Source: Thermoprotei archaeon
Lineage (GTDB): Archaea > Thermoproteota > Thermoprotei > Thermoproteales > B15-G16
NCBI GenBank assembly: GCA_003649205.1
Contig: QMRC01000001.1
Coordinates: 140,767-204,766 of the forward strand
Length of the DNA stretch: 64,000 nucleotides
Reading direction: 5' to 3'
Shown one piece after another: positions 2,133 to 42,709 of this stretch (the first letter of the stretch is position 1; each line of letters opens with the position of its first letter). Under the pieces are notes generated by a model. That model was given only the letters and a program-made list of their open reading frames with translations. It was not told where the DNA came from and searched no databases. The position numbers and the translations under genes were made by a program.

Positions 2133-2357
2133 TTACTCATATCGGAGAGCACCATATGGACAAGACTCTACACATTTAAGACATGAATCACATCCGTCTA
2201 GTATTTCTGCGTGTGGATTTCCTTCTTCATCTTCGTATATGCGTATGAAGGCCTTGCTAGGATTGAACTCGTGGAAGTGGTGGAAGGAACACATGAATTG
2301 ACAAGTCCTACATATTCTGCAATTTTCCGGAACGAATATTATTCTTTTCTGACTCAT
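2133..2357 (-). CDS. Small 4Fe-4S ferredoxin-like protein, probable AOR partner
   Basis: CRICRTCQFMC and CDSCLKCVESCP motifs; directly upstream of the AOR gene on the same strand. Confidence 0.8.
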   Translation of the reverse strand: MSQKRIIFVPENCRICRTCQFMCSFHHFHEFNPSKAFIRIYEDEEGNPHAEILDGCDSCLKCVESCPYGALRYE

Positions 2358-3073
2358 CTTTCACCCTCCATCATCTTCTTATATTCCTCTATTATTTCTA
2401 CACCAGAACTGGTACCTATTCTATCCGCTCCCGCTTCTATTACTTCCAGTGCTTGTTTTGCTGTCCTTATACCGCCAGCAGCTTTTATTTTGACTCTATT
2501 CCCTACTATTGACTTAATGAACCTCACATCTTCTGCCGTTGTTGGCCTCCACTTGTGGAATCCTTTGAATCCCGTTGAAGTTTTTATGTAGTGTACTCCA
2601 GCCTCAATAGCTAGTTCACAAGCTATTTTTATCTCCTCTTTAGTGAGGTATGGTACTTCGATAATTGCCTTTACTATGCGGCCTTTAGCAGCTTCTACTA
2701 TTTTTTTAAGTTCTTCTCTTACTTCATCTATTTTACCACTTTTTAAGGCACCTTTATTCAAGACAAAGTCTATTTCTACTTCATCAGCTCCATCCTTGAT
2801 TGCTCTTTCAACTTCAAGTACCTTAAGCTCTATAGGAACTGTACCAAGAGGAAATCCTATTGCTGCTGTGATTTTCACTCCTGTTCCCTTGAGGATTTCT
2901 CTAGCAAGAGGTATCATCGCTGGATAAATTGCAACAGATGCGAATCTGTACTTTTTTGCGTTTAGGAGGAATTTTATAAATTCATCTTCGCTGTCTGGAA
3001 CAATTTTGAGGTATGTTTGATCTATTCTTTTCGCAAGTTCTTCCACAGACAGCTTGATCACTTTACTATTCAC
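2354..3073 (-). CDS. deoC: Deoxyribose-phosphate aldolase (DeoC family)
   Basis: YIKTSTGF Schiff-base Lys motif, VKIKAAGGIR second Lys motif, DEVEIDFVLNKGALK. Confidence 0.88.
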   Translation of the reverse strand: MNSKVIKLSVEELAKRIDQTYLKIVPDSEDEFIKFLLNAKKYRFASVAIYPAMIPLAREILKGTGVKITAAIGFPLGTVPIELKVLEVERAIKDGADEVEIDFVLNKGALKSGKIDEVREELKKIVEAAKGRIVKAIIEVPYLTKEEIKIACELAIEAGVHYIKTSTGFKGFHKWRPTTAEDVRFIKSIVGNRVKIKAAGGIRTAKQALEVIEAGADRIGTSSGVEIIEEYKKMMEGER

Positions 3074-3851
3074 CTCTTAGCTTTGATTTAGGATCTTCCT
3101 TAATCAATCTAATTACCCTTTCATATAAAAGTTCCTTTTTCTCCTCTGATAATGCTTCCCACGCTTTCTCGAGAGTATTGAAGACATCTTCTGGTGTGCT
3201 TGTTGCAATTCTATCGGCACCCGCTTCCAGCATGCTAAGAGCTATTTCAGCATTTCTAACACCGCCTGCAGCCATAACCTTTATTTTATCTCCGTAATTA
3301 TCCTTGATAATCTTCACATGCTCAGGTAGCGTCTTTAACCCATAGCCGCTATTGGTTTTTATGAAATGAGCACCGGCCTCAATAGCGATCTTTGTAAATA
3401 GTTTTATTTCTTCAGGAGTCAGGAATGCTGTTTGTGGAATTACTTTGACAATTACGTTCTCGGATTCAGCTATCTTAACTATTCTTCTAATTTCCTCCTT
3501 TAACAGATCGTACTGACCAAACTTAAAGTAGTACATATTTACAGCAACGTCAAGCTCATTAGCTCCTTGCTCAATAGCCCATTTAGCTTGTTCAACTTTA
3601 ATATCTGTTGGTATTCCTCCAGTAGGGTATGCGATTGGTGCTACTACATCAATTTTTGTGCCTTTAAGCAGTTTCACAGCAAGAGGTATGTAGTATAGAT
3701 CTACAGCTATTGCTGCATATGGATACTTCTTATGGTGTTCAATGAATTTTCTGACTTCCTCTTCAGTAGTATCGGGTTCTATCAGTGAGGTATCCATTAT
3801 TCTAGCTAGGAGATCTACCGTGAGTTTATATTTACTCCCCATAACGTACAC
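3066..3851 (-). CDS. DeoC-family aldolase paralog, divergent
   Basis: FIKTNSGYG and AAGGVRNAE; Lys of the KAAGG motif replaced by Met (KVMAAGG). Start may be the internal ATG (MGSKYK). Confidence 0.75.
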   Translation of the reverse strand: MYVMGSKYKLTVDLLARIMDTSLIEPDTTEEEVRKFIEHHKKYPYAAIAVDLYYIPLAVKLLKGTKIDVVAPIAYPTGGIPTDIKVEQAKWAIEQGANELDVAVNMYYFKFGQYDLLKEEIRRIVKIAESENVIVKVIPQTAFLTPEEIKLFTKIAIEAGAHFIKTNSGYGLKTLPEHVKIIKDNYGDKIKVMAAGGVRNAEIALSMLEAGADRIATSTPEDVFNTLEKAWEALSEEKKELLYERVIRLIKEDPKSKLRGE

Positions 3852-3935
3852 CCGAATGGGCTGTCTAGCTGTTAATAGTTGTGTGAAAAGGGTAGTTAAA
3901 GAAATATATGTGGATTTCTATCTTTGTCAACAAAG

Positions 3936-5495
3936 TTAGAAGATGTTGTACTTTAGTCCTACTTCAAATAGTTGCTTATAAATGGAATCGAGTGTTCTCC
4001 AGATGTTCTTATACACTTTGTATATCTCAGTGTATATTTTGTGTGCTTCTGAATCAGGCTTCTCTACTGCTATATCTCTTATTAATTTTTCAACAATGCT
4101 GTAATCCTTGTAAATACCTACGCCAATACCAGCGGCAACTGCTGCAGCTAGGCAGTTTGCTTCTTGGAGTAGTTCTGGAACAAGTAGTTCTACTCCTAAG
4201 ACATCTGCCATAATTTTTCTCCAGGTAGCATTTTGTGCACTACCACCTATTAACCTAATGAGTTCGATTTTTGCACCTTCTTCTCTGAAGATTTCTATGA
4301 TTTCTCTCATTGTTAATGCTACTCCCTCCATTATTGCTCTTATGAAGTGTTCTTTTCTATGGGCTAGCGTTAGGTTGAGGAAGCCTCCCTTTATGTAGCT
4401 CTTGTTGTGTGGTGCACCTCCACCCATTAGGTACGGGAGAAATACTAGACCCCCACTTCCAATAGGTACTTGTTCAGCTTTAATCTGGATAACGTCATAT
4501 ATGCTGATACCAGCTCTCTCAGCTCCTTCCTTTTCTGATATCAGAAAATGCTCAATAAACCAGTCAATACTAGCTGAACCGCTGTGAGTGAATTGATGAG
4601 GAGTGTACTTTCCAGGTATCATGCTACATAACGTACATATGCGGTACTGTGGACTTATCATTGGGGAGTTTGTGAATATCCCAGACCAGAAGGCTGTACC
4701 AGTACATATGTATGAGATACCCTCTTTGACAACGCCAGCACCGACTGCTGCAGCTGGTACGTCACCAGCACCCGCTACTACTGGTGTTCCTGGTTTTAGA
4801 CCTGTTACTTTAGCAGCTTCATCAGTTACATAACCGACAACATCATGAGACTCATAGAGATCAGGAAGCTTATCCATATCAATTCCCATGAATGAAACGA
4901 CCTCTTCGTCCCATGTGCGCTTGTGAATATTGAGCATTCCGGTGTTTGATGCGTCAGTGTAGTCACTTGCTATCTTACCAGTTAATTTAAGCCTAATGTA
5001 ATCCTTACATTGGATGAACTTATGTGTCTTCTCGTATATTTCGGAAAGATGCTTCTTTATCCATGCTATTTTAACAAGTGGATACATAGGTACAGCCATG
5101 CCAGAACCTGTTCTCTTGTAAAATTCTTCCCATCCAAAGTTTTTCTCAAGATGCTCACTTTCCTCAACAGCTCTCATGTCTTCCCATATAATGACTCTCT
5201 TCATTAAGAGATTACCTTCTTTATCTACAGGAACAGCACCCATCATTTGTCCACTGAATGATATGGCTGCAATTTTTTCAGGTGGTATCTTCGTTTTCCT
5301 TAGGATATTCCTCGTAGACTCAACAACAGCCACCCACCATTCTTCAGGGCTCTGTTCGACCCATTGGGGTCTTACGTAATAGGTATTGTAACGTCTATAC
5401 TCACGTGCAATAGCTCTTCCCTCGGTGTTGAATAGTACTGCTTTAACACCAGAGGTGCCAAGATCGTAAACTAGAAAATATTCCTTCTCTACCAT
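3936..5495 (-). CDS. FGGY-family carbohydrate kinase (copy 1)
   Basis: N-term DLGTSGVKAVLFN, GGSAQNATWRKIMADVLG, EANCLAAAVAAGIGVG. Confidence 0.87.
   Translation of the reverse strand: MVEKEYFLVYDLGTSGVKAVLFNTEGRAIAREYRRYNTYYVRPQWVEQSPEEWWVAVVESTRNILRKTKIPPEKIAAISFSGQMMGAVPVDKEGNLLMKRVIIWEDMRAVEESEHLEKNFGWEEFYKRTGSGMAVPMYPLVKIAWIKKHLSEIYEKTHKFIQCKDYIRLKLTGKIASDYTDASNTGMLNIHKRTWDEEVVSFMGIDMDKLPDLYESHDVVGYVTDEAAKVTGLKPGTPVVAGAGDVPAAAVGAGVVKEGISYICTGTAFWSGIFTNSPMISPQYRICTLCSMIPGKYTPHQFTHSGSASIDWFIEHFLISEKEGAERAGISIYDVIQIKAEQVPIGSGGLVFLPYLMGGGAPHNKSYIKGGFLNLTLAHRKEHFIRAIMEGVALTMREIIEIFREEGAKIELIRLIGGSAQNATWRKIMADVLGVELLVPELLQEANCLAAAVAAGIGVGIYKDYSIVEKLIRDIAVEKPDSEAHKIYTEIYKVYKNIWRTLDSIYKQLFEVGLKYNIF
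4774..4886. repeat. 113-bp block identical to 6342..6454 in the neighbouring kinase gene
   Basis: Base-by-base comparison, 113/113 identical, same orientation. Confidence 0.95.
5251..5339. repeat. 89-bp block identical to 6822..6910 in the neighbouring kinase gene
   Basis: Base-by-base comparison, 89/89 identical. Confidence 0.95.
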
Positions 5496-5509
5496 ATTTA
5501 CTCACCTCC

Positions 5510-7087
5510 TTAAATTGTACTCAACTTATTAAAGATTTCATTTAAGTTCCTGAATGATGACTTGAAGAGTTCATATAGCTTCTCATATATCTCCACGTTT
5601 TCTGGTGTGGGCTCAACAACTTTCTTTATCTTAACGACCCTTTCTGCGGCCTCCTCATAGGATTTCCATAGGCCTACACCAATACCTCCCATGATTGCTG
5701 CTCCAATAGCTGTTGTGTCTTGAGGATTCTCTAGTACGATCATCTTCATGTTTAGAATATCTGCATGAATTTGCACCCATAGGTCACTTAGAGCGCCGCC
5801 TCCTATTGTCCTAAACTCTCCCCACTTACGTAGTGGTATGCCTGCTTCTTCGAACTGCTCAACTAACCATTTGAATGCAAAAGCTACTCCTTCGAGTACA
5901 GCTCTGTAGAAGTCAGCCCTCTTTGTATGTAGGGACGTTATGCCTATAAATGCTCCTCTTGCATTAGGATTCCAGTGTGGACCTCCACCACCTGCAATGT
6001 ATGGGATGAATATTAATCCACCACATCCAGGTTTAACTTCTCTAGCCTTTGATTCATAGACATCAAGAACTTTTATTCCTAAATTGCTTAGGATGCTTTC
6101 CTCTATACCTAGGAATGTGCTCTTAAACCAATCGACTGATAGACCTCCTGCAGATATGTATGAGAACGGCGTGTACTTACCTGGAATCGCTGATAAGAAG
6201 TTGTTTATACGTGCCTTTGGGTCTAGTATCGGCTCATGAGAAAATGCTGCTAGCTGACTTGCTGTACCGATGTAGCAATAGGCTGTTCTCTCTTTGACAA
6301 CGCCAGCACCCACCGCTGCGCAAATGCTATCACCTGATCCTGCTACTACTGGTGTTCCTGGTTTTAGACCTGTTACTTTAGCAGCTTCATCAGTTACATA
6401 ACCGACAACATCATGAGACTCATAGAGATCAGGAAGCTTATCCATATCAATTCCTGCTGCTTCAAGGATTTCCTCAGAGTACTTTCTCTTCCTTACGTCT
6501 AGCCATCCCGTGTTTGAAGCTCCACCGTAGTCACCTACGAACTTTCCTGTTAGCTTAAGTATTATGTAGTCCCACGTTTGTAGGAACTTGTATGTTCTGT
6601 TGTAGACTTCAGGTTCATTTTCCTTTAACCACATTACTTTGGATATAGAGAGCATGCCTAGTGGGTGGCCGAGACCATGAATCTTGTAGAAATTCTCGTA
6701 ACCTCCTAGCTTCTCTACAAGCTTCTTTCCTTGTTCTTCTGCTCTCAAATCCGCCCAAATCATTACGTACTTACGTACAACTCTACCTTCTTTATCTACG
6801 GGGACACATCCAGGGAAGTGCCCACTGAATGATATGGCTGCAATTTTTTCAGGTGGTATCTTCGTTTTCCTTAGGATATTCCTCGTAGACTCAACAACAG
6901 CCACCCACCAGTCCTCGGGACACTGCTCAACCCATAGGGGTCTAGGACGGTATGTTGGGTATGGTCTGAACTCTGAAGCAACAAGGTTACCCTCACTGTC
7001 TACTAGGACTGCTTTATCACCTGAGGTACCAAGGTCATGTGTTAAGATATATATCTCGTCCTTTCGAGGACTGGCCATCTCTACCAT
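5510..7087 (-). CDS. FGGY-family carbohydrate kinase (copy 2)
   Basis: HDLGTSGDKAVLVDSEG, GGGALSDLWVQIHADIL, TTAIGAAIMGGIGVG; tandem paralog of copy 1. Confidence 0.87.
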   Translation of the reverse strand: MVEMASPRKDEIYILTHDLGTSGDKAVLVDSEGNLVASEFRPYPTYRPRPLWVEQCPEDWWVAVVESTRNILRKTKIPPEKIAAISFSGHFPGCVPVDKEGRVVRKYVMIWADLRAEEQGKKLVEKLGGYENFYKIHGLGHPLGMLSISKVMWLKENEPEVYNRTYKFLQTWDYIILKLTGKFVGDYGGASNTGWLDVRKRKYSEEILEAAGIDMDKLPDLYESHDVVGYVTDEAAKVTGLKPGTPVVAGSGDSICAAVGAGVVKERTAYCYIGTASQLAAFSHEPILDPKARINNFLSAIPGKYTPFSYISAGGLSVDWFKSTFLGIEESILSNLGIKVLDVYESKAREVKPGCGGLIFIPYIAGGGGPHWNPNARGAFIGITSLHTKRADFYRAVLEGVAFAFKWLVEQFEEAGIPLRKWGEFRTIGGGALSDLWVQIHADILNMKMIVLENPQDTTAIGAAIMGGIGVGLWKSYEEAAERVVKIKKVVEPTPENVEIYEKLYELFKSSFRNLNEIFNKLSTI

Positions 7088-7845: not shown

Positions 7846-9186
7846 GTGGCTCTACAACCAGTTACCGATCAGGTTAATAAGGGGTATACGGATATGTCGA
7901 TCCTAGAGTTCATAGTAAATCTCTTTAGACAACCAGCGCTATTCATAGGGATCATAGCTTTAATAGGTTACCTACTAATGAAAGAAGACATAAACAAGAC
8001 CATAATAGGATCCATAAAAGCTGCTGCAGGGCTTGCCATCCTATTATGGGGCGTAGGCTTTATGTTTCAAGGATTACAACCAATAGGCACCGTACTAGCA
8101 AAAACAGTTGGAGTAAAGCCTCTTGAAGTGACTGTCGGTACGAGTAAGATCATACGTCAGTACGGTACTGAGATAGGTATAGCTATGATAGTGATGTTCT
8201 TAACGAATCTATTCTTAGCAAGAGTAACTAAGATGAAATATATATACCTAACGGGCCAGTTATATCTATTTGTTACATGGATTCTAACAGGCATCTTTGC
8301 ATATACTTGGGGCCTTTCTGGAATACCACTGGCACTTGTAGTAGGAGTTGTTTCCGGTATATACGTAACGATCCAACAATGGTATACAGCAAAATTTGCG
8401 CTCGCTATTAATCCTAAAAAGGATTACGTCCTAGGACACATATGTTCACTAGGTGTATTGATAACATCATTGATCTTCACAAAAGGAGGAAAACAGCTCG
8501 AAAGGCCATCACATGTTAGAAGTATGGAGGAGATGACCTTACCAAAGAAATTACAGTGGATAGGAGAGACAACAGGCCTACTCTTTGTGCTGTTCCTAGT
8601 AATTTACTTAGTACTGATAGGATTAAACTACCCAGAATGTCTTAAACTGGCAACAGCTGCTGGCATGCATCCTGTTGTATGGGCAATCATGCAATCACTA
8701 ACATTTACAGCAGGCTTCGCTGTTCTCATATTAGGCGTTCAGCTTCTTGTAGAGAACTTAATTCCTGCCTTTAAAGGTATAGCGTTGAAACTAGTTCCCG
8801 GTGCATTGCCTGGTCTTGATGTTCCAATGTTCTATGTATTTGCACCAAAGACCACTGCGATCACAGGCGTAATTGGAATAATAGCACAAGTGGCGTTTGC
8901 TCTCATAGTCATGGCGCTAGGATACCCCTACTTCATCTTTGCTCCTTCAGCGTGGGTATGGTTCCATGCAGCATGTGCCGGAGTATTTGGGAATCACTTC
9001 GGAGGAATAAGGGGTGCCATCACGGGTGCCATCATTACAGCCTTGCTCATGGTTATAGGACAAATGATATTGACCCCAATACTGGGGCCTATAATAGGAG
9101 ATTACTTCATGTGGGGCGGCGATCCTGACCTCCAAATATATGGCAGCATTATAGCGTGGCTAGGTAAGATGGTTACGGGACACTAG
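7846..9186 (+). CDS. PTS IIC component, ascorbate type (UlaA/SgaT family)
   Basis: Multi-TM; LVENLIPAFKGIALKLVPGALPGLDVPMFYVFAPK and GVFGNHFGGIRGAI are UlaA-type motifs. Likely true start at ATG 7894. Confidence 0.8.
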   Translation: MALQPVTDQVNKGYTDMSILEFIVNLFRQPALFIGIIALIGYLLMKEDINKTIIGSIKAAAGLAILLWGVGFMFQGLQPIGTVLAKTVGVKPLEVTVGTSKIIRQYGTEIGIAMIVMFLTNLFLARVTKMKYIYLTGQLYLFVTWILTGIFAYTWGLSGIPLALVVGVVSGIYVTIQQWYTAKFALAINPKKDYVLGHICSLGVLITSLIFTKGGKQLERPSHVRSMEEMTLPKKLQWIGETTGLLFVLFLVIYLVLIGLNYPECLKLATAAGMHPVVWAIMQSLTFTAGFAVLILGVQLLVENLIPAFKGIALKLVPGALPGLDVPMFYVFAPKTTAITGVIGIIAQVAFALIVMALGYPYFIFAPSAWVWFHAACAGVFGNHFGGIRGAITGAIITALLMVIGQMILTPILGPIIGDYFMWGGDPDLQIYGSIIAWLGKMVTGH

Positions 9187-12968: not shown

Positions 12969-13376
12969 ATGCCTTGTGAACGATATATTGACTGGCTGGA
13001 TGAAGCTCTCGATGATTATGGTACTGCTGAGGATCTCTTTCGGCTAGGTAGGTACAGTAAGACCTGTTTCTTCTGTCATCAAGCATGTGAAAAAGCTCTC
13101 AAGGCTTTACTAATCAAGAGAGCTGGTCGCTATGTACCGATACATAGTGTTGCTGAGTTACTTAGGATTGCTGCTTCGATCACTAATGTACCTAGTGAGT
13201 TAGTTAGAAAGGGTGATGTCTTGGATCGATTCTACATACCTACCAGGTACCCTAATGCATGGCCTTCAGGTGCACCCTACAAGCACTACACTAGGGAGGA
13301 TGCTGAGTTAGCTCTTAGATATGCAAGGGAGGTGCTCGAGTTTGTTAAGAGAGAGATTGAGAGAGATTCTAGCTAG
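12969..13376 (+). CDS. HEPN domain protein
   Basis: WLDEALDDYGTAEDLFRLGRYSKTCFFCHQACEKALKALLI; coupled to a nucleotidyltransferase. Confidence 0.87.
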   Translation: MPCERYIDWLDEALDDYGTAEDLFRLGRYSKTCFFCHQACEKALKALLIKRAGRYVPIHSVAELLRIAASITNVPSELVRKGDVLDRFYIPTRYPNAWPSGAPYKHYTREDAELALRYAREVLEFVKREIERDSS

Positions 13377-13725
13377 AGTGAGTTCTCTCGATCTTCTTGA
13401 CGACTTGGTGAAAGTTCTGGAGGACTTAGTGAGGAGCTATAGACCTCTCTCTATCATTATTGCTGGTTCTCTTGCGAGAGGGGACTTCATTAGGGGGTTG
13501 AGTGATATTGATGTTCTAGTTATTGTTGGGTACTCTGTTGATAAGTTTAGTAGATTTCTGTTGAGAGCTGTTGATGAGGTTGATGTTGAGATTACGGTGT
13601 TTAGTCTTGAGGAGGTTATTGAGTGTATTGAGAGAGGTAATGAGTTTGTGATTGATGCTCTTGTACGTGGTTGTGAAGTATATGGTAATCTACGGGGTGT
13701 ACTGCTTAGATATGTCAAGCGTTAA
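13321..13725 (+). CDS. Minimal nucleotidyltransferase (MNT), partner of HEPN
   Basis: IIIAGSLARGDFIRGLSDIDVLVIV (GSxxRGD...SDID motif); true start probably downstream of 13321. Confidence 0.85.
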   Translation: MQGRCSSLLRERLREILARVSSLDLLDDLVKVLEDLVRSYRPLSIIIAGSLARGDFIRGLSDIDVLVIVGYSVDKFSRFLLRAVDEVDVEITVFSLEEVIECIERGNEFVIDALVRGCEVYGNLRGVLLRYVKR

Positions 13726-34960: not shown

Positions 34961-35407
34961 GTGGGTGCTATCTTGAGTATTGAGTACGTGGAGATTTTGA
35001 AGAGGAGAGCACAGCAATTTGTTAAGTATGGTGATGTAGCTTTACAGAATGAGGACTATGACTTAGCATGCTTTATGTACCATCAAGCTAGTGAGCTATA
35101 CCTTAAAGCCATACTACTTAGATTAACAGGACATGTACCTCGATTACATTCGATTAGACAATTACTTGCTCTCTTAATCAAAATTCTCGAAGAGGTATTT
35201 CACCAGAGACTTAATGATATAATTGACTTACTGAGATACTTTACCTCACGTTATAGGAGCGAACTTAAGCTTCTCGATGAAGTTTACGTACAGGCTAGAT
35301 ATGCTCCTCGAAGATATTCAAGGGAGGAATGTGAGAGTTTAAGAGATTTATCTAGACACATACTTGAGGTGGTGAAGCTTATTGAAGAGAGACTTTCAAG
35401 CATCTGA
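34961..35407 (+). CDS. HEPN domain protein
   Basis: NEDYDLACFMYHQASELYLKAILLRLTGHVPRLHSIRQLL. Confidence 0.85.
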   Translation: MGAILSIEYVEILKRRAQQFVKYGDVALQNEDYDLACFMYHQASELYLKAILLRLTGHVPRLHSIRQLLALLIKILEEVFHQRLNDIIDLLRYFTSRYRSELKLLDEVYVQARYAPRRYSREECESLRDLSRHILEVVKLIEERLSSI

Positions 35408-35774
35408 AGAAGTATACCTTAGAATTAGAGCAGAGATGTTTCGTGAACTACTAAAGTGGAGGCACTACCTAAAGTACTTAATTGAAGCTAGTGAGAAGGT
35501 ACTTGGTGAGAATGCTGAGATCTATGTCTTCGGTAGTGCTATTGAGGGTAAGTTAACTGCTGATAGCGATGTTGATGTAGCTATCGTACTACCTCAAGTA
35601 CCTTCCTCTGGTGCTGAGAGAGCTAAGGTGATTGATAGGATCTTTAGGTATATGGAGGAGAGGGGTGTTCCTTGGTGGTATCCCTTCGAAATTCACTTAG
35701 TGACTAGAGAGGAAATGGAGGTATTGAAGAGAGGAGGAGCTAAATTCTACAACGCTAAAGAACTAGTCAAGTAG
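35382..35774 (+). CDS. Nucleotidyltransferase (MNT)
   Basis: IYVFGSAIEGKLTADSDVDVAIVLP; overlaps the HEPN gene. Confidence 0.85.
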   Translation: MKRDFQASEEVYLRIRAEMFRELLKWRHYLKYLIEASEKVLGENAEIYVFGSAIEGKLTADSDVDVAIVLPQVPSSGAERAKVIDRIFRYMEERGVPWWYPFEIHLVTREEMEVLKRGGAKFYNAKELVK

Positions 35775-35787
35775 ATGCATATTGCTA

Positions 35788-37620
35788 CTAGTGTGTGACT
35801 TTCTTCACTAGGTACCTGGGTGAGTCAATTGGTCTTCCTAGTAATTCTCCAAGTCTATACGATAGGAATTGTAGTGGTATTGCAAATGCTATTGGTGCTA
35901 TATGTCTTGTAGTTGGTGGGACGAGTAGTGTGGGTACACCTACCATACGTAGATTTTCATCGTGCTCAAACCCTACACTGATTACGGTAGCTCCCCTCTC
36001 CTTAGCTACTTTCATTAGAGGGTACGTAGCTTCTGCTGCTACCTTCTCGACGGGTACTATGAATATGGTGAAGAAGTTCTCACCTATGAGTACTATTGGT
36101 CCATGTTTGAACTCTCCTGCTTCAATACCTTCAGCGTGAATGTATGCTACTTCCTTGAGCTTAAGTGCTCCCTCTAGTGCTATTGGGTACGTAATTCCCC
36201 TAGATATGACGTATCCACTCCTACACTTTACTATTTTCTTAGCTGCTTCAGAAGCTACTGCATCAATGTTCTTCATGTGTTTGGTAAGTTCCAAAGCATA
36301 CTTCTTCAGCTCTTCAACTCTATTCCTGAACTCTGAGGCTGATAGCTCTCTCCTCTCCTTCGCTACTCTTAGAGCCACTATGTAGAGTACTGCCAGGGTA
36401 GAGGTAAAGGTCTTTGTTGCTGGTACAGCTAATTCAGGTCCTGCCGCTATTGGTAAGTACAGATTCGAGAGATTTGCTAATTTAGAACCTATGTAGTTTG
36501 TTATTCCAAGAATTGTTGCACCTCTAAGCTTTGCTTCGTATACTGACTTTATGACATCTGATGTCTCTCCTGACTGTGATATCGCTATCACGACAGTTCC
36601 TGGTCCTACATTCTCAACGTAGTATAGTGGGAATTCAGCAGCACTAACAACTATTGGACTTATCTTAGCTAGTTCAGAGAGATAGTATGAACCTACGAGT
36701 CCTGCATGGAGACTAGTACCGTCAGCAATTATGTATATGCTCTCAGCTTCTTGGAGTAGTCGAGAAGCAAATGTCAGGTACTTTTCCTGAATTGACGATA
36801 ATGTCCTCAGTAGAGCATACGGTATCTCATAGATTTCCCTAAGCATATGGTGTGGAAATCCATCAGTGTAAATATACTCCGCCTTTACTTCAAGTGGTTT
36901 AAATTCCTTCTCCAAAGGCCTCATCTCTTTTACATCCATGAAGCGTACACCATCTCTAGATAGAACAGCTAACTCACCACCCCTAAGTTCCGTAACTACG
37001 TCAGTAAAACCATGTAGAGAGCTCCTTGTTGAAGCTATAGCAATCAGATCTCTCGATAACCCAACATAGAGTTCCTGAAGAGAGGTGTAGGCAAGTATCG
37101 ATCTCGATTCAGCATGTAGAACTACAAAGCTAAAGAAACCTTCAAGTTTCCTAGCTACAGCAGCTACAGCTTCCTCTACACTTATACCCTCTTTCAACTC
37201 ATCCTCCAGCAAGTGAGCTATAACTTCGAAATCACAGCGAGAAACTACTCTATGCCCTTTCACAAACAATTCATCCCTTAACATCTCGTAGTTTGCTATA
37301 GCACCATCACCAACAACAGCAATCAAACATGAGCAATCAGCGTGTGGATGAGCGTTATCCACATGTGGTCTTCCATGTGTAGAGAACCTGGTATGACCAA
37401 TAGCTACATCACTTCGGCAAGAGGATAGGGCACGATCCCGATACACCTTATTGATATCACCAACACCCTTGCGTACCTCAATAATATGGTCTCTAAGGAA
37501 GGCTATACCAGCTGTATCTGAACCCCTAAATGCCATCCTCCTCAAACACTCAACAACGATACCAATGACGTCCGAACCCGATCTCGAAATCACACCACAT
37601 ACACCACCCACATCCATCAC
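35788..37620 (-). CDS. glmS: Glucosamine-fructose-6-phosphate aminotransferase (GlmS)
   Basis: CGVISRSG Ntn amidotransferase start, HTRFSTHGRPHVDNAHPH, two SIS domains. Confidence 0.88.
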   Translation of the reverse strand: MMDVGGVCGVISRSGSDVIGIVVECLRRMAFRGSDTAGIAFLRDHIIEVRKGVGDINKVYRDRALSSCRSDVAIGHTRFSTHGRPHVDNAHPHADCSCLIAVVGDGAIANYEMLRDELFVKGHRVVSRCDFEVIAHLLEDELKEGISVEEAVAAVARKLEGFFSFVVLHAESRSILAYTSLQELYVGLSRDLIAIASTRSSLHGFTDVVTELRGGELAVLSRDGVRFMDVKEMRPLEKEFKPLEVKAEYIYTDGFPHHMLREIYEIPYALLRTLSSIQEKYLTFASRLLQEAESIYIIADGTSLHAGLVGSYYLSELAKISPIVVSAAEFPLYYVENVGPGTVVIAISQSGETSDVIKSVYEAKLRGATILGITNYIGSKLANLSNLYLPIAAGPELAVPATKTFTSTLAVLYIVALRVAKERRELSASEFRNRVEELKKYALELTKHMKNIDAVASEAAKKIVKCRSGYVISRGITYPIALEGALKLKEVAYIHAEGIEAGEFKHGPIVLIGENFFTIFIVPVEKVAAEATYPLMKVAKERGATVISVGFEHDENLRMVGVPTLLVPPTTRHIAPIAFAIPLQFLSYRLGELLGRPIDSPRYLVKKVTH

Positions 37621-37633
37621 CTCATCAATTAAT

Positions 37634-39391
37634 TTACACCAGTAACTTTACACCGAAGTCCCTGAGCAACCTAGTAACAACCTCTCTAACCTCCTCCGGA
37701 GTAGAAGCTTCATCAATAAGCTCATCAATTATCGGCTTTATCTTTGAAACATTGAGTTTTCTAATCACGTACTTAGTCCTACCAACAAAGCTTGGTGATA
37801 CACTGAGCTTCCTAATACCAATGGATATCAGTATAGGTATGGCATAGACATTACTAGTCATCTCACCGCAGATCTCAACATCTAGGCCACACCTCCTAGC
37901 TCTCTCAACAACATCCCTAATTAACCTTAGAACAGCAGGATGAAGTTCACTATAGAGATGAGCTACGCGAGGATTCTCTCTATCTACAGCAAGAACGTAT
38001 TGCGTCAAGTCATTTGTACCCAAGCTTATAAACTCTATTGGTCCTGCTTTAACGAACCTATCAAGTAAGATGGCAGCAGCAGGTGTTTCAACCATTATAC
38101 CGAGCTTTGGTCTCGAATATCTCACACCTTTCTCTCGAAGTTCATTCTCAACCTCTTCCACGATCTTCATAAACTCCTTAACCTCGATAGGACTTGAAAC
38201 GAGAGGTAACATAATCCGTAATTTATCACCAACCCTAGCTGCGAGACGTAGAGTAGCTTCAATAAATGGCTTCAGCAACTCGTCCCTGTACTGAAGCAGA
38301 AGCCTAATACCACGAAGGCCAAGTTGAGGATTCGATTCAGGTGTTAACTGTAGGAACTTCACAGGTTTATCAGCACCAATATCAAGTGCACGAACTGTTA
38401 CCTCTCCATCAACTGAGTTCACTATCTCCTCAAGTACCTTCTCAATATCTTCAGCAGTTGGGGGAGAAGATCTACCCATGTAGACGAACTCCAGACGAAG
38501 TATACCAATACCTTCACCACCGTAAGACTTAAGCACCTTTGCCTCCTCAATAGAACCTACATTACAGAGGACATGGACTCTAATACCATCTCTAGTCACA
38601 GCTTCTTTAAGTGCTTCCTCCCTACATACCCTACTCAATTCTCTATACATCGCAATTACGTCACGATACCTCTCAAGAGTACTCTCTCTCGGATTAATTA
38701 TCAAGACACCATTTATGCAGTCAAGGATACATGTATAACCGTCACTCAATGTAGATACGTCGAGATCACTAACTATCAGGTACGGTATTCCATAGCTCCT
38801 AGCTAGTATAGCTACATGCGATGTTAAACCACCTTCTCTTGAGACAATACCACTGATACCACATCGAATTAGGTTCATAAAGTCTAGTGGTAGTATCTTA
38901 TCAGCAACAACAACCTTACCCCTCAGAAGCTTTACTTCCTTCTCGTAGACCCCCATCAAAATACCTATCAACCTTGTAGCTAGATCCTCCAAATCGTGAA
39001 CTCTAAGAGCAATAGTAGAGCTGCTAGCCTCCTTAAGCTGTTTAGCATATCTTTCAAATACATTCTTCACAGCTACCTCAGCCCTAATTCCTTCAGAGAG
39101 TATAAGCTCGGTAGCTTCAGCTACTAACGCTTCTAACATCATGACCTCAGCATCAAGTAGATCCTTTTCCTCCTCTGGTGCAGACTCCTTAAGCTTCTCA
39201 AGCTCCTCCATTAACCTCTTCTTCGCTCTCTCAAGTCTATCTACCTCAGCATTCACATCACGAACCTTCTCACTCTCAATAGCACCCTCCAAGACTACTT
39301 TCCGTTTAAGAACAGCAATAGCACTGTACGTCAAACCTGGTGAAGCTACTAATCCCCTATAGATCCTCTCCACATCAACACCTCCAAACAC
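37634..39391 (-). CDS. ptsI: PTS enzyme I
   Basis: GGLTSHVAILARSYGIPYLIV active-site His, EGIGILRLEFVYM, FISLGTNDLTQYVLAVDRENPRV, EICGEM. Confidence 0.93.
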   Translation of the reverse strand: MFGGVDVERIYRGLVASPGLTYSAIAVLKRKVVLEGAIESEKVRDVNAEVDRLERAKKRLMEELEKLKESAPEEEKDLLDAEVMMLEALVAEATELILSEGIRAEVAVKNVFERYAKQLKEASSSTIALRVHDLEDLATRLIGILMGVYEKEVKLLRGKVVVADKILPLDFMNLIRCGISGIVSREGGLTSHVAILARSYGIPYLIVSDLDVSTLSDGYTCILDCINGVLIINPRESTLERYRDVIAMYRELSRVCREEALKEAVTRDGIRVHVLCNVGSIEEAKVLKSYGGEGIGILRLEFVYMGRSSPPTAEDIEKVLEEIVNSVDGEVTVRALDIGADKPVKFLQLTPESNPQLGLRGIRLLLQYRDELLKPFIEATLRLAARVGDKLRIMLPLVSSPIEVKEFMKIVEEVENELREKGVRYSRPKLGIMVETPAAAILLDRFVKAGPIEFISLGTNDLTQYVLAVDRENPRVAHLYSELHPAVLRLIRDVVERARRCGLDVEICGEMTSNVYAIPILISIGIRKLSVSPSFVGRTKYVIRKLNVSKIKPIIDELIDEASTPEEVREVVTRLLRDFGVKLLV

Positions 39392-39421
39392 TGGAATTAC
39401 AATTGAGGTGGAGAACTCAGC

Positions 39422-39509
39422 GTCTCAATCATGAGACAGTTACTCGAGTTAAAGTACTTATTTATATTCACTTACACTTAACACCTCTCTGAAGTGTAGA
39501 CAAGGTGTT
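39422..39509. promoter_or_regulatory. Cluster of inverted repeats between ptsI and IIA genes
   Basis: GTCTCA-atca-TGAGAC (39422..39437); ACACTT/AAGTGT (39474-479/39492-497); AACACCT/AGGTGTT (39480-486/39503-509); TATA-like tttatat between. Confidence 0.45.
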
Positions 39510-39514
39510 GAGTC

Positions 39515-39943
39515 ATGACCGGCGTAGTAATTGTATCACATGGTAGGTTTGTTGATGGGATACTCGACTCTGTAAGGATGCTCCTAGGCTCTGATGTACT
39601 GAATAAGGTCACTAGCGTCGTATTGACTGAAATGGATTCTGTTGAAGGGCTTGTACAGAGAGTTAAGGAAGCTATTGAGAAGGTAAGAGATGAAAATGGA
39701 GTACTTGTATTAGTTGATCTCTTTGGTGGTACACCATCGAGAGCAGCTGCCATGATAGTTATTGAGAACCCTAATGTTGAGGTAGTAGCTGGACTCAACT
39801 TACCAATGCTACTACAAGTCCTTCTAAATCTAGATAAACCTGCTAATGAACTTGCAAAGCTAGCTGTTGAAGCAGGTAGGGAAGGGATAATACATGTAAG
39901 CGAGAGAATTAGGGAACAAGTACTGAAGACTAAGGAGCAGTAA
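39515..39943 (+). CDS. PTS EIIA, mannose family
   Basis: GVVIVSHGRFVDGILDSVRMLLG active-site His, VLVDLFGGTPSRAA, GLNLPMLLQVL. Confidence 0.92.
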   Translation: MTGVVIVSHGRFVDGILDSVRMLLGSDVLNKVTSVVLTEMDSVEGLVQRVKEAIEKVRDENGVLVLVDLFGGTPSRAAAMIVIENPNVEVVAGLNLPMLLQVLLNLDKPANELAKLAVEAGREGIIHVSERIREQVLKTKEQ

Positions 39944-39955
39944 CCCACTAGGTAT

Positions 39956-40459
39956 CTAGGCCTTGACCAGACCTTTACTCTTTAGTAGCTCATAGAAGTC
40001 CTGAGCTTTTTCACTGGGAAGCATCTGGTACACTAATCTAATACCCATCCTCACCATCTCTTCAAAAGCCTTGACATCATCCATATCAACAGCAAAGCTC
40101 TTAACAACGAGAACCTTACCCTCTTTCCAAGCACTTTGCCCAACATTAACCCAATCTATACGTAGATTACTCTCTTTAATTAGCTTCAGACAGGTAGTTG
40201 CTTTAGCTACAATTATCATTATATTGCTCCTCTCGTCAAAATTTCGGTTTCGAATCTTCTCAATAGCTTCACTGACCTTTAGCACCTCAACCTTCGTATT
40301 TGGTGGTGCGAGTGCAATCTGAAGCTGCTTCAGTATAGGGTTTGAAGCTATAGTATCGTCAACGACCCAAATCTCATTTATGCCATATGCATTGACCCAA
40401 CCAACAGTAACCTGACCGTGGATGTACCTATCATCTATTCTTATCAACTTAATAGGCAT
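39956..40459 (-). CDS. PTS EIIB, mannose family
   Basis: LIRIDDRYIHGQVTVGWVN active-site His motif, VNVGQSAWKEG. Confidence 0.93.
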   Translation of the reverse strand: MPIKLIRIDDRYIHGQVTVGWVNAYGINEIWVVDDTIASNPILKQLQIALAPPNTKVEVLKVSEAIEKIRNRNFDERSNIMIIVAKATTCLKLIKESNLRIDWVNVGQSAWKEGKVLVVKSFAVDMDDVKAFEEMVRMGIRLVYQMLPSEKAQDFYELLKSKGLVKA

Positions 40460-40561
40460 AGTAACTCAACTCCACGCTCTTTAAAGAGGTAGGAAGCGAG
40501 TAGGGGAATTAAAATTTAGGTTAAGTATTAAGGAAGGAAAAGATAAGGGGTTATAGGTGGC

Positions 40562-42307
40562 TTAGCCAGGTGCTAGGACGCCTATCAGTCCAAGTACGAA
40601 ACCAATTACGAAGTACAGCCCAAGTACCTTTATCGGTGAAATACCCTTCTTCATCAATGCAAATGCTCCTAGGAAGAATGCCAGTGGTATTAATCTAGGC
40701 ATTATCTTATCGATACACTCCTGTATTGATATTGCTGCACCCTTCATACCAACAATCTGTAATGGTACCTTAACATTTACGTAGGTTACACCTAAAGCAG
40801 CAATAACTGCAACTGCTAAAGCGGCTAGTGCTGTTCTGATAATCTCTATTCTACCTGTCCTTAGTATAGTTGCAATACTTAGGCCATACTTGTAACCGTA
40901 GTACAGTAGAAGCCAACCAACGATGAACACAACTGGTATCCAAAGTACTGCTGCTACAACTGGTCCTACGAAACCTGCAGTCATAGCTAGTGATGCACCT
41001 ATACCAAAGGCAATTGGTCTCCAGGTGAACCAGAAAATACCATCACCGAGACCAGCTAGTGGTCCCATGAGTGATGTCTTGATGCCACGAACGGTCTCCA
41101 TGTCTGCTCCACTCTCTTCTAGTGCAGCGTCTATACCTACGATCAGTGGTATCATAACTGGGTTTGTGTTGAAGAACTCATTGTGCATCTTCATCCAAGT
41201 CTTCAATTCATCCGGTGTCTTCCTCAGTTTCTTCTCTATGTGAGTCATGATGAAAGCGTAAGCTGAACCTTGCATTCTCTCGTAGTTCCAAGCCCATTGT
41301 GACGCAAAAGCAATCTTGAGAAATGTCTTCACTAAGTCCTTCTTAGTGAGAACACGCTGCCCTTCTGTAGGTGTGGCAGTAGTTGGTGCTGCAGCTCTAA
41401 TAGCCTCCCAAAGTTCTTTGCGCCAAACAAGGAATATTAGACCTGCAACCAGTAATGCAACACCTAAGATGGGTAGCTTTAGGTAGGCTATGAGGACGTA
41501 ACCTAGTATCAACCATGGAAGCATTTCACTAGTGTAGAGTAGCTTTAGCAACCAACCTAGACCAATAGCAGGCATTAACCAACCTGCGACGCCAAGTGCG
41601 GTGAAAATCTTCTTCACTATTGGTGTATTGACGAAGGTCCTCAACGTCTCCACTGCCTGTGGACTCATGCCCAATGCCGCAAATGCGACAACTGGGATCA
41701 GGTACGCTATAAACCACTGGAATGTACCTAGAGCAACTACTGGTCCAATAGCACTAATATTACCTGAATCAATGAGCCTATCAACTAGGTGTGAGTAACC
41801 AACACAACCCATTCTAGCTAAGACAACCTCTATGTACATAGCTAGTAGACCTATTGGAACTACCAGAGCTACTATGCTAGAGAGAGCTTCTGTCGTAACC
41901 TCAGTAATACCTAGGATCTTTGCAAACATCACTGCTACGATTGTTGCAACCCAAGCACAGGGTGCAGCAGCACCACCAATAGGGAAGACACCTAGGTACA
42001 CTAGCTCTAACATTGCTGATAGGACGAGAGCGACTTCAGGAATACCGAGTATGAATCCAGCGATAGTACCTATGAGGAGTGGTTCAGTGAATCCTAGTGG
42101 GTTAAAGCCAAGAAATGTATAGACAATTACTAGCAGCAATGCAGCAAGGCCAGCTAGCTGCAGTGGTGTGATTACGACACCAGCTTGCGTTGGTGATGGT
42201 AGGAATGTATTGAGTCCTAGAACTGGTTTAGCTAAGGCTAGTGTCAAGAGTATTAGGCAGAGGGTAGAGATGTATAGCTTACCATTAGTACGTATTTGCG
42301 CGATCAT
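40562..42307 (-). CDS. PTS EIIC-EIID fusion, mannose family
   Basis: N-half IIC (PEVALVLSAMLELVYLGVFPIGGAAAPCAWVATI), C-half IID (LTKKDLVKTFLKIAFASQWAWNYERMQGSAYAFIMTHIEKKLRKTPDEL, MGPLAGLGDGIFWFTWRPI) in one 581-aa frame. Confidence 0.92.
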   Translation of the reverse strand: MIAQIRTNGKLYISTLCLILLTLALAKPVLGLNTFLPSPTQAGVVITPLQLAGLAALLLVIVYTFLGFNPLGFTEPLLIGTIAGFILGIPEVALVLSAMLELVYLGVFPIGGAAAPCAWVATIVAVMFAKILGITEVTTEALSSIVALVVPIGLLAMYIEVVLARMGCVGYSHLVDRLIDSGNISAIGPVVALGTFQWFIAYLIPVVAFAALGMSPQAVETLRTFVNTPIVKKIFTALGVAGWLMPAIGLGWLLKLLYTSEMLPWLILGYVLIAYLKLPILGVALLVAGLIFLVWRKELWEAIRAAAPTTATPTEGQRVLTKKDLVKTFLKIAFASQWAWNYERMQGSAYAFIMTHIEKKLRKTPDELKTWMKMHNEFFNTNPVMIPLIVGIDAALEESGADMETVRGIKTSLMGPLAGLGDGIFWFTWRPIAFGIGASLAMTAGFVGPVVAAVLWIPVVFIVGWLLLYYGYKYGLSIATILRTGRIEIIRTALAALAVAVIAALGVTYVNVKVPLQIVGMKGAAISIQECIDKIMPRLIPLAFFLGAFALMKKGISPIKVLGLYFVIGFVLGLIGVLAPG

Positions 42308-42430
42308 CGGGGGAAAAGTAGTAATATTGACGTTTTTATAGATTTAATGATACTACCCTGTCAAGTGATGAAATAAATTTAGAGAGATAGGTAACCGTGT
42401 AAGTACTTGAGTACTAATTGAGGGGTCAGC

Positions 42431-42709
42431 ATGACTGTGGAAGCTAGTTTCAAGATCCTAAATAGGTTAGGTCTACATGCTAGGCCAGCTGCACTATTCG
42501 TTAAGACCTGTCGTAAATTTAAGTCGAAGATAGTGATCTTCAAGGGTGATAGAATGGCGGATGCAAAGAATATACTTCAAGTACTTGCACTTGATGTAAA
42601 CCAAGGAGATGAGATAAAGGTAGTTATTGAGGGTGAAGACGAGAAGGAAGCCTATATGGAGATAGAGAATCTTATCAAGAAGGTACTACCTGAGGTAGAT
42701 AGAGGATAG
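42431..42709 (+). CDS. ptsH: PTS phosphocarrier HPr
   Basis: NRLGLHARPAALFVKTCRKFKSKI with His active site. Confidence 0.93.
   Translation: MTVEASFKILNRLGLHARPAALFVKTCRKFKSKIVIFKGDRMADAKNILQVLALDVNQGDEIKVVIEGEDEKEAYMEIENLIKKVLPEVDRG

Follow-up and report, generated by a model that had tools for sequence, protein, structure and literature searches.

A mannose-family phosphotransferase system adjoins a GlmS homologue that has lost the glutaminase nucleophile in a Thermoprotei archaeon

Introduction

The phosphotransferase system (PTS) has been described as absent from most archaea and reported for Thermofilum pendens, and the parts of the two papers at hand (PMC2678158, PMC3189178) do not discuss the GlmS homologue that is considered here. 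This paper describes a mannose-family PTS and the GlmS homologue next to it in a stretch of 64,000 nucleotides from a Thermoprotei archaeon (GCA_003649205.1), hereafter the window, which covers bases 140767-204766 of a contig 372,623 bases long; the assembly measures 2.07 Mb (31 contigs, 93.8% complete, 4.2% contamination). No SSU gene was found in this assembly, and the genome is placed by group codes, in a family of its own in the order to which Thermocladium also belongs. An earlier note, made from the letters of the window, had claimed a complete mannose-family PTS clustered with GlmS. As T. pendens illustrates, a PTS is not new in this class of archaea; the new element is the GlmS homologue beside it, the glutaminase of which is predicted to be dead.

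The T. pendens PTS is likewise crenarchaeal, and the genomes here called Thermofilum-like (a label for one genus, given from its group position) encode Enzyme I (EI), HPr, IIA, IIB, a fused IIC-IID, and the same GlmS homologue, in clusters with a gene order unlike that of the window, where NagA is not adjacent. With Escherichia coli ManXYZ and related mannose-family enzymes II (PDB 6k1h, 1vrc, 1vsq) the window set shares the IIA, IIB, IIC, and IID families and their phosphorylated histidines, but its IIC and IID form one protein, its IIA and IIB are encoded separately, one on each strand, and it has its own EI and HPr. Glutamine-dependent glucosamine-6-phosphate (GlcN6P) synthase, GlmS (TIGR01135; PDB 4amv), resembles the window protein in its full-length two-half architecture, above-cut-off score, and sugar-site residues, whereas the window protein has Gly for Cys1, Asp for Asn98, and a replaced Trp74. 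The SIS-type GlcN6P deaminases NagB-II (PDB 8eol) and archaeal GlmD (NF041128) have a homologous SIS half and the reaction that is proposed below; they are without a glutaminase half, whereas the window protein still has one in degenerate form and scores far below both cut-offs.

We propose, with a probability of about 0.6, that the locus encodes a working mannose-family PTS that feeds amino-sugar breakdown, with the GlmS homologue acting as GlcN6P deaminase. This would give crenarchaea, where the PTS is rare, a PTS route for amino sugars that is open to experiment, and, if the deaminase assignment is true, a biosynthetic enzyme became catabolic through loss of its glutaminase. The group also presents an annotation trap, as the members of a whole clade exceed the GlmS equivalog cut-off yet are without the residue that defines GlmS chemistry.

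Results

The PTS cluster and its active sites

Genes for EI, IIA, IIB, a fused IIC-IID, and HPr are packed into 5.1 kb of the archaeal contig (Table 1), and every part has a Pfam match far over its cut-off (EI 282 bits, IIA 95, IIB 136, IID 265, IIC 117, HPr 96), which bears out the complete system seen in the earlier note. The four enzyme II families are thus all represented by Pfam and PDB matches, with the two halves of the fused permease matching solved ManY and ManZ. The active-site histidines, which the note had read as kept in EI, IIA, IIB, and HPr, are in place in alignments with solved homologues: TSHVAI of EI matches TSHSAI of 2hro, GLHARPAA of HPr aligns with 3le1, SHG of IIA matches THG of ManX (1vrc), and RIDDRYIHGQ of IIB matches RIDDRFIHGQ of 1ble. 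The regulatory Ser46 of bacterial HPr is Asn in the window HPr and in most archaeal HPrs aligned. The best model for IIA is the N-acetylgalactosamine (GalNAc)-type AgaF and that for IIB a general mannose/sorbose model, all scores being below cut-off.

Because IIA and HPr lie on the opposite strand, the cluster comprises several transcription units and not a single operon. EI and the GlmS homologue are probably co-transcribed, since they share the minus strand with EI upstream and the start of the GlmS homologue following it. It is therefore not the end of glmS that lies near ptsI, as had been noted, and the distance given as 13 bp becomes 22 bp with the likely GTG start at 37611, which has GAGGTG 6 nt upstream. 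A scan for sigma-70-type promoters gave nothing above chance.

Loss of glutaminase residues in the GlmS homologue

The GlmS homologue scores 504.7 bits against the GlmS equivalog TIGR01135 (cut-off 418), and automatic annotation will therefore label it GlmS. In an alignment of 15 members of its group with eight copies of ordinary GlmS encoded by this and related genomes (E. coli GlmS numbering), all 15 members have Gly in place of the glutaminase nucleophile Cys1, Asp in place of the oxyanion residue Asn98, and Phe, Tyr, or Ser in place of Trp74, and the eight ordinary copies retain all three original residues. The sugar-site residues K485, E488, H504, and K603 of the SIS half are kept throughout, and the only positions that fully separate the two groups are C1G, N98D, A400P, A588G, and one gap. 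With Gly for Cys1 and Asp for Asn98 the glutaminase should be dead, and because both residues are absent from the window protein and its orthologues, the protein is not a glutamine-dependent GlcN6P synthase. The suggestion that an amino sugar is a plausible substrate stands, the identity as ordinary GlmS does not, and the amino-sugar link consequently points to breakdown instead of synthesis.

With the start at GTG 37611, Gly is the second residue and the first Cys occurs only at position 5. Where N-termini were readable, high-scoring proteins have xGG[ILV] and low-scoring ones xCG[IV], with one high scorer truncated and one read from a separate alignment. Between the window protein and its Thermofilum-like orthologues the glutaminase (GATase) half is 38-43% identical and the SIS half 62-67%, in contrast to ordinary GlmS copies, whose halves differ little in conservation (57 vs 55%). 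Judging from these identities, constraint on the GATase half is relaxed; the half is nevertheless retained, and a structural function or a regulatory one is conceivable for it. The models of the SIS-type deaminases gave 130 bits for NagB-II (cut-off 430) and 61 bits for GlmD (cut-off 580), and by its sequence relationships the GlmS homologue is a lineage separate from both, derived from full-length GlmS. Full-text searches of an open-access library gave no mention of this group; subscription papers lay outside that scope, and a prior description is possible.

Distribution and history

Over 81 genomes of the class the scores split cleanly, with a match of at least 716 bits in 19 genomes and all other matches at 551 bits or less. 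The high-scoring group forms one clade in the tree (100/99), and it adjoins PTS genes in ten of the 19 genomes. EI was detected in 14 of the 81; the GlmS homologue is present in 12 of these 14 compared with 7 of the 67 others, and by genus in 6/7 with EI versus 1/23 without (Fisher p 8e-5, uncorrected for relatedness). In most of the carriers examined, an ordinary GlmS with its Cys exists alongside the homologue; in this genome the ordinary GlmS is located on another contig (C3).

A sample of 400 genomes from across the phylum contained ten with EIID, namely this one, Thermocladium UBA166, seven Thermofilum-like genomes, and G002, which belongs to another class. The same kind of cluster thus occurs in the Thermofilum-like genus, Thermocladium, and another class, and the PTS, rare as the earlier note held it to be, is less isolated in archaea than was claimed there. 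Since the window IIC-IID is closest to that of G002 (52% identity, against 38-42% with the Thermofilum-like proteins), and EI (44-47%) and the GlmS homologue (52-57%) are nearest to their Thermofilum-like counterparts, the parts have partly separate histories. In the permease tree the window, G002, and Thermofilum-like proteins form a clade (100/99) outside which the Baldrarchaeota and Thermocladium proteins fall, and a constraint enforcing monophyly of all archaeal permeases was not rejected (p-AU 0.21). The IIC-IID fusion also occurs in Baldrarchaeota, Coprothermobacter, and some Actinomycetota, and as a hallmark of archaea it was rejected, being found in Coprothermobacter, Cryosericum, Pseudonocardiaceae, and others. 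G002 was initially taken to be without EI, which the first family search had missed; it was later found beside HPr and NagA (37% identity), so that absence calls from single-family searches are weak.

Amino-sugar genes in this genome and gene neighbourhoods in others

NagA is encoded on contig C3 (340 bits against a curated cut-off of 226), paired with an SIS_2 protein that is 61% identical to its Thermofilum-like counterpart, and a ceramidase-like gene is nearby. The NagA gene is intact; the stop codon that had been flagged in it precedes the true start. Wherever it was checked, contig C3 (291,428 bp; L133, L184) proved to be a perfect inverted palindrome. This is a fold-back of the assembly, which doubles the number of genes, and the duplicates of GlmS and NagA on the contig were for this reason rejected as real copies. 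About 55 kb from the PTS, on contig C1, are a NagK-like kinase, well below the cut-off of its model, and an ABC sugar transporter whose binding protein has 76% identity with that encoded close to the GlmS homologue in the Thermofilum-like genome G177.

In Thermofilum-like clusters the GlmS homologue adjoins NagA, EI, and HPr, and a HAD phosphatase and a ceramidase-like protein are also present, neither of which has a place in a plain N-acetylglucosamine (GlcNAc) pathway. Two genomes of another family (G418, G388) have the homologue with EI, HPr, and SIS_2, the G418 locus additionally containing IIC and IIB of the GAT type, a different enzyme II family. In two Thermoproteaceae genomes without this PTS the genes next to the homologue encode a TatD-type hydrolase and a NagK-like BadF kinase, and Baldrarchaeota have a comparable PTS cluster with a GlmS-like protein that consists of SIS only, without the glutaminase half. 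Ceramidase-like proteins (PF04734) recur in or near clusters of mannose-family PTS and NagA genes in archaea and bacteria (examples in Table 1).

Table 1. Coordinates of the PTS cluster, of other features of the window, and of loci elsewhere that are mentioned in the text
Feature	Position	Strand	Remarks
Glutaminase-dead (predicted) GlmS homologue ('GGIF-GlmS')	35788..37611	-	degenerate GATase half and intact double-SIS sugar half; TIGR01135 504.7 bits
PTS Enzyme I (ptsI)	37634..39391	-	TIGR01417 410 bits; active-site His and CGEM motif aligned with solved EI
Divergent intergenic region EI/IIA	39392..39514	.	probable promoters, from gene layout and sequence
PTS IIA, mannose family	39515..39943	+	SHG histidine aligned with ManX
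PTS IIB, mannose/sorbose family	39956..40459	-	RIDDRYIHGQ aligned with 1ble and 1vsq
PTS IIC-IID, single fused membrane protein	40562..42307	-	ManY- and ManZ-like halves
Divergent intergenic region IIC-IID/HPr	42308..42430	.	probable promoters, from gene layout and sequence
HPr	42431..42709	+	Pfam match and alignment; bacterial Ser46 position is Asn
HEPN/nucleotidyltransferase pair	34961-35774	+	adjoins the cluster
Similar-looking HEPN/nucleotidyltransferase pair	12969-13725	+	judged by eye
EIIC of the ascorbate/galactitol (GAT) family	7846-9186	+	PF03611, 228 bits
deoC (x2) and xylulokinase-like FGGY kinases (x2)	2354-7087	-	both in tandem
Ceramidase-like proteins, examples	L013 13713-14981; L037 2026-3315; L043 13488-14771; L176 7917-9194		PF04734
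EI-HPr-DhaM-DhaL-DhaK locus of G042	L179 4887-8938		EI, HPr, DhaM, and DhaK by search; rest by eye

Discussion

In the proposed route, phosphate would be relayed from phosphoenolpyruvate through EI, HPr, and IIA to IIB, and the fused IIC-IID would bring the sugar in and release its 6-phosphate. The imported sugar would most likely be GlcNAc (or glucosamine, with GalNAc less likely), NagA would deacetylate the sugar phosphate to GlcN6P, and the SIS half of the GlmS homologue would, as a deaminase, convert this to fructose-6-phosphate and ammonia. The choice for breakdown is made because the genomic partners of the GlmS homologue are NagA, a NagK-like kinase, and the PTS. Several points weigh against this proposal. 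Seven genomes of the class have the GlmS homologue and no detected EI; NagA and SIS_2 are not adjacent to the PTS in this genome, in which contig C5 (L134) moreover encodes a rival candidate for the deaminase, a GlmS/GlmD-like protein of 366 aa that consists of SIS only; and the family matches cannot separate GlcNAc from GalNAc, the best match of IIA being with AgaF, below cut-off. In addition, the Cys at position 5 leaves a small chance of an N-terminal processing event, against which it counts that Asn98 is lost too and that there are orthologues without a Cys near the N-terminus. A bolder and rather doubtful extension is that the GlmS homologue constitutes a distinct class of GlcN6P deaminase, built from full-length GlmS, in which the dead glutaminase half may have become a regulatory domain that binds an amino acid or other effector at the kept Arg73/Asp123 pocket and tunes amino-sugar breakdown to uptake by the PTS.

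SIS-type enzymes are able to run in both directions, and this reversibility, together with the retention of all catalytic residues of the sugar half and the position of the gene 22 bp downstream of EI on the same strand, could also fit a real PTS beside a GlmS homologue that serves as an ammonia-dependent GlcN6P synthase, no longer in need of glutamine. We regard this as quite improbable, as an ordinary GlmS with its Cys is also present in most of the carriers examined and the genomic partners are catabolic. The PTS might instead take up a different hexose (mannose, glucose, GalNAc, or one resembling sorbose), with the GlmS homologue acting as isomerase or deaminase on the phosphate of that sugar. 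The breadth of the mannose family, the below-cut-off best matches of IIA (AgaF) and IIB (mannose/sorbose), and the HAD phosphatase and ceramidase-like protein of the Thermofilum-like clusters are in line with such a substrate, which remains an unlikely one given that NagA recurs in several cluster types and is present in this genome, and that the GlmS homologue descends from GlmS, an enzyme that acts on sugars of the gluco configuration, and not from AgaS.

That the cluster could be mis-binned bacterial DNA or a very recent bacterial transfer, a concern already raised by the earlier note, was considered because the PTS is mainly bacterial and the contamination value of the assembly is 4.2%. 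Archaeal markers flank the locus on the same contig: genes for the proteasome alpha subunit, L37ae, and an RNase PH subunit of the exosome lie to one side, and those for a mevalonate-kinase-like GHMP kinase and for L6 to the other. Base composition is flat across the locus. In the phylogeny of EI for which the note had called, a tree of 24 EIs sampled outside the haloarchaea, the ten archaeal EIs are on one side of a branch with 100/98 support, and the window EI is placed next to the Thermofilum-like EIs (99/98). The contamination value would be inflated by the palindromic contig C3, which is a likely source of it. On the archaeal flanking markers, the even composition, and the archaeal EI, contamination was rejected, and a bacterial origin of this kind seems extremely improbable; the tree speaks for an EI that these archaea share with one another, not one freshly imported from bacteria.

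Additional observations

Several other loci contain PTS genes of different types (Table 1). In G042, of the Thermoproteaceae group, aquaporin-like and glycerol-kinase-like genes lie near an EI-HPr-DhaM-DhaL-DhaK array, which likely represents a PTS-dependent dihydroxyacetone kinase in a crenarchaeon. At four loci (L177, L180, L239, L138), GAT-type PTS parts (EIIC-GAT, PTS_IIB, or PTS_EIIA_2) lie close to SIS_2 and in most cases close to EI and HPr as well; the hosts of these loci belong to a second thermoproteal class, Baldrarchaeota, family f9, and the Thermofilum-like G177.

Within the window, a HEPN/nucleotidyltransferase pair, of a type typical of toxin-antitoxin modules, adjoins the PTS cluster, and a similar-looking pair occurs at 12969-13725. 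The window also encodes a second PTS-type permease, an EIIC of the GAT family, which is possibly a lone permease; no EIIA or EIIB gene was seen beside it and no EIIA_2 was found in the genome. Next to this EIIC are tandem deoxyribose-phosphate aldolase genes and tandem genes for xylulokinase-like kinases, which suggest a pentose or deoxysugar locus.

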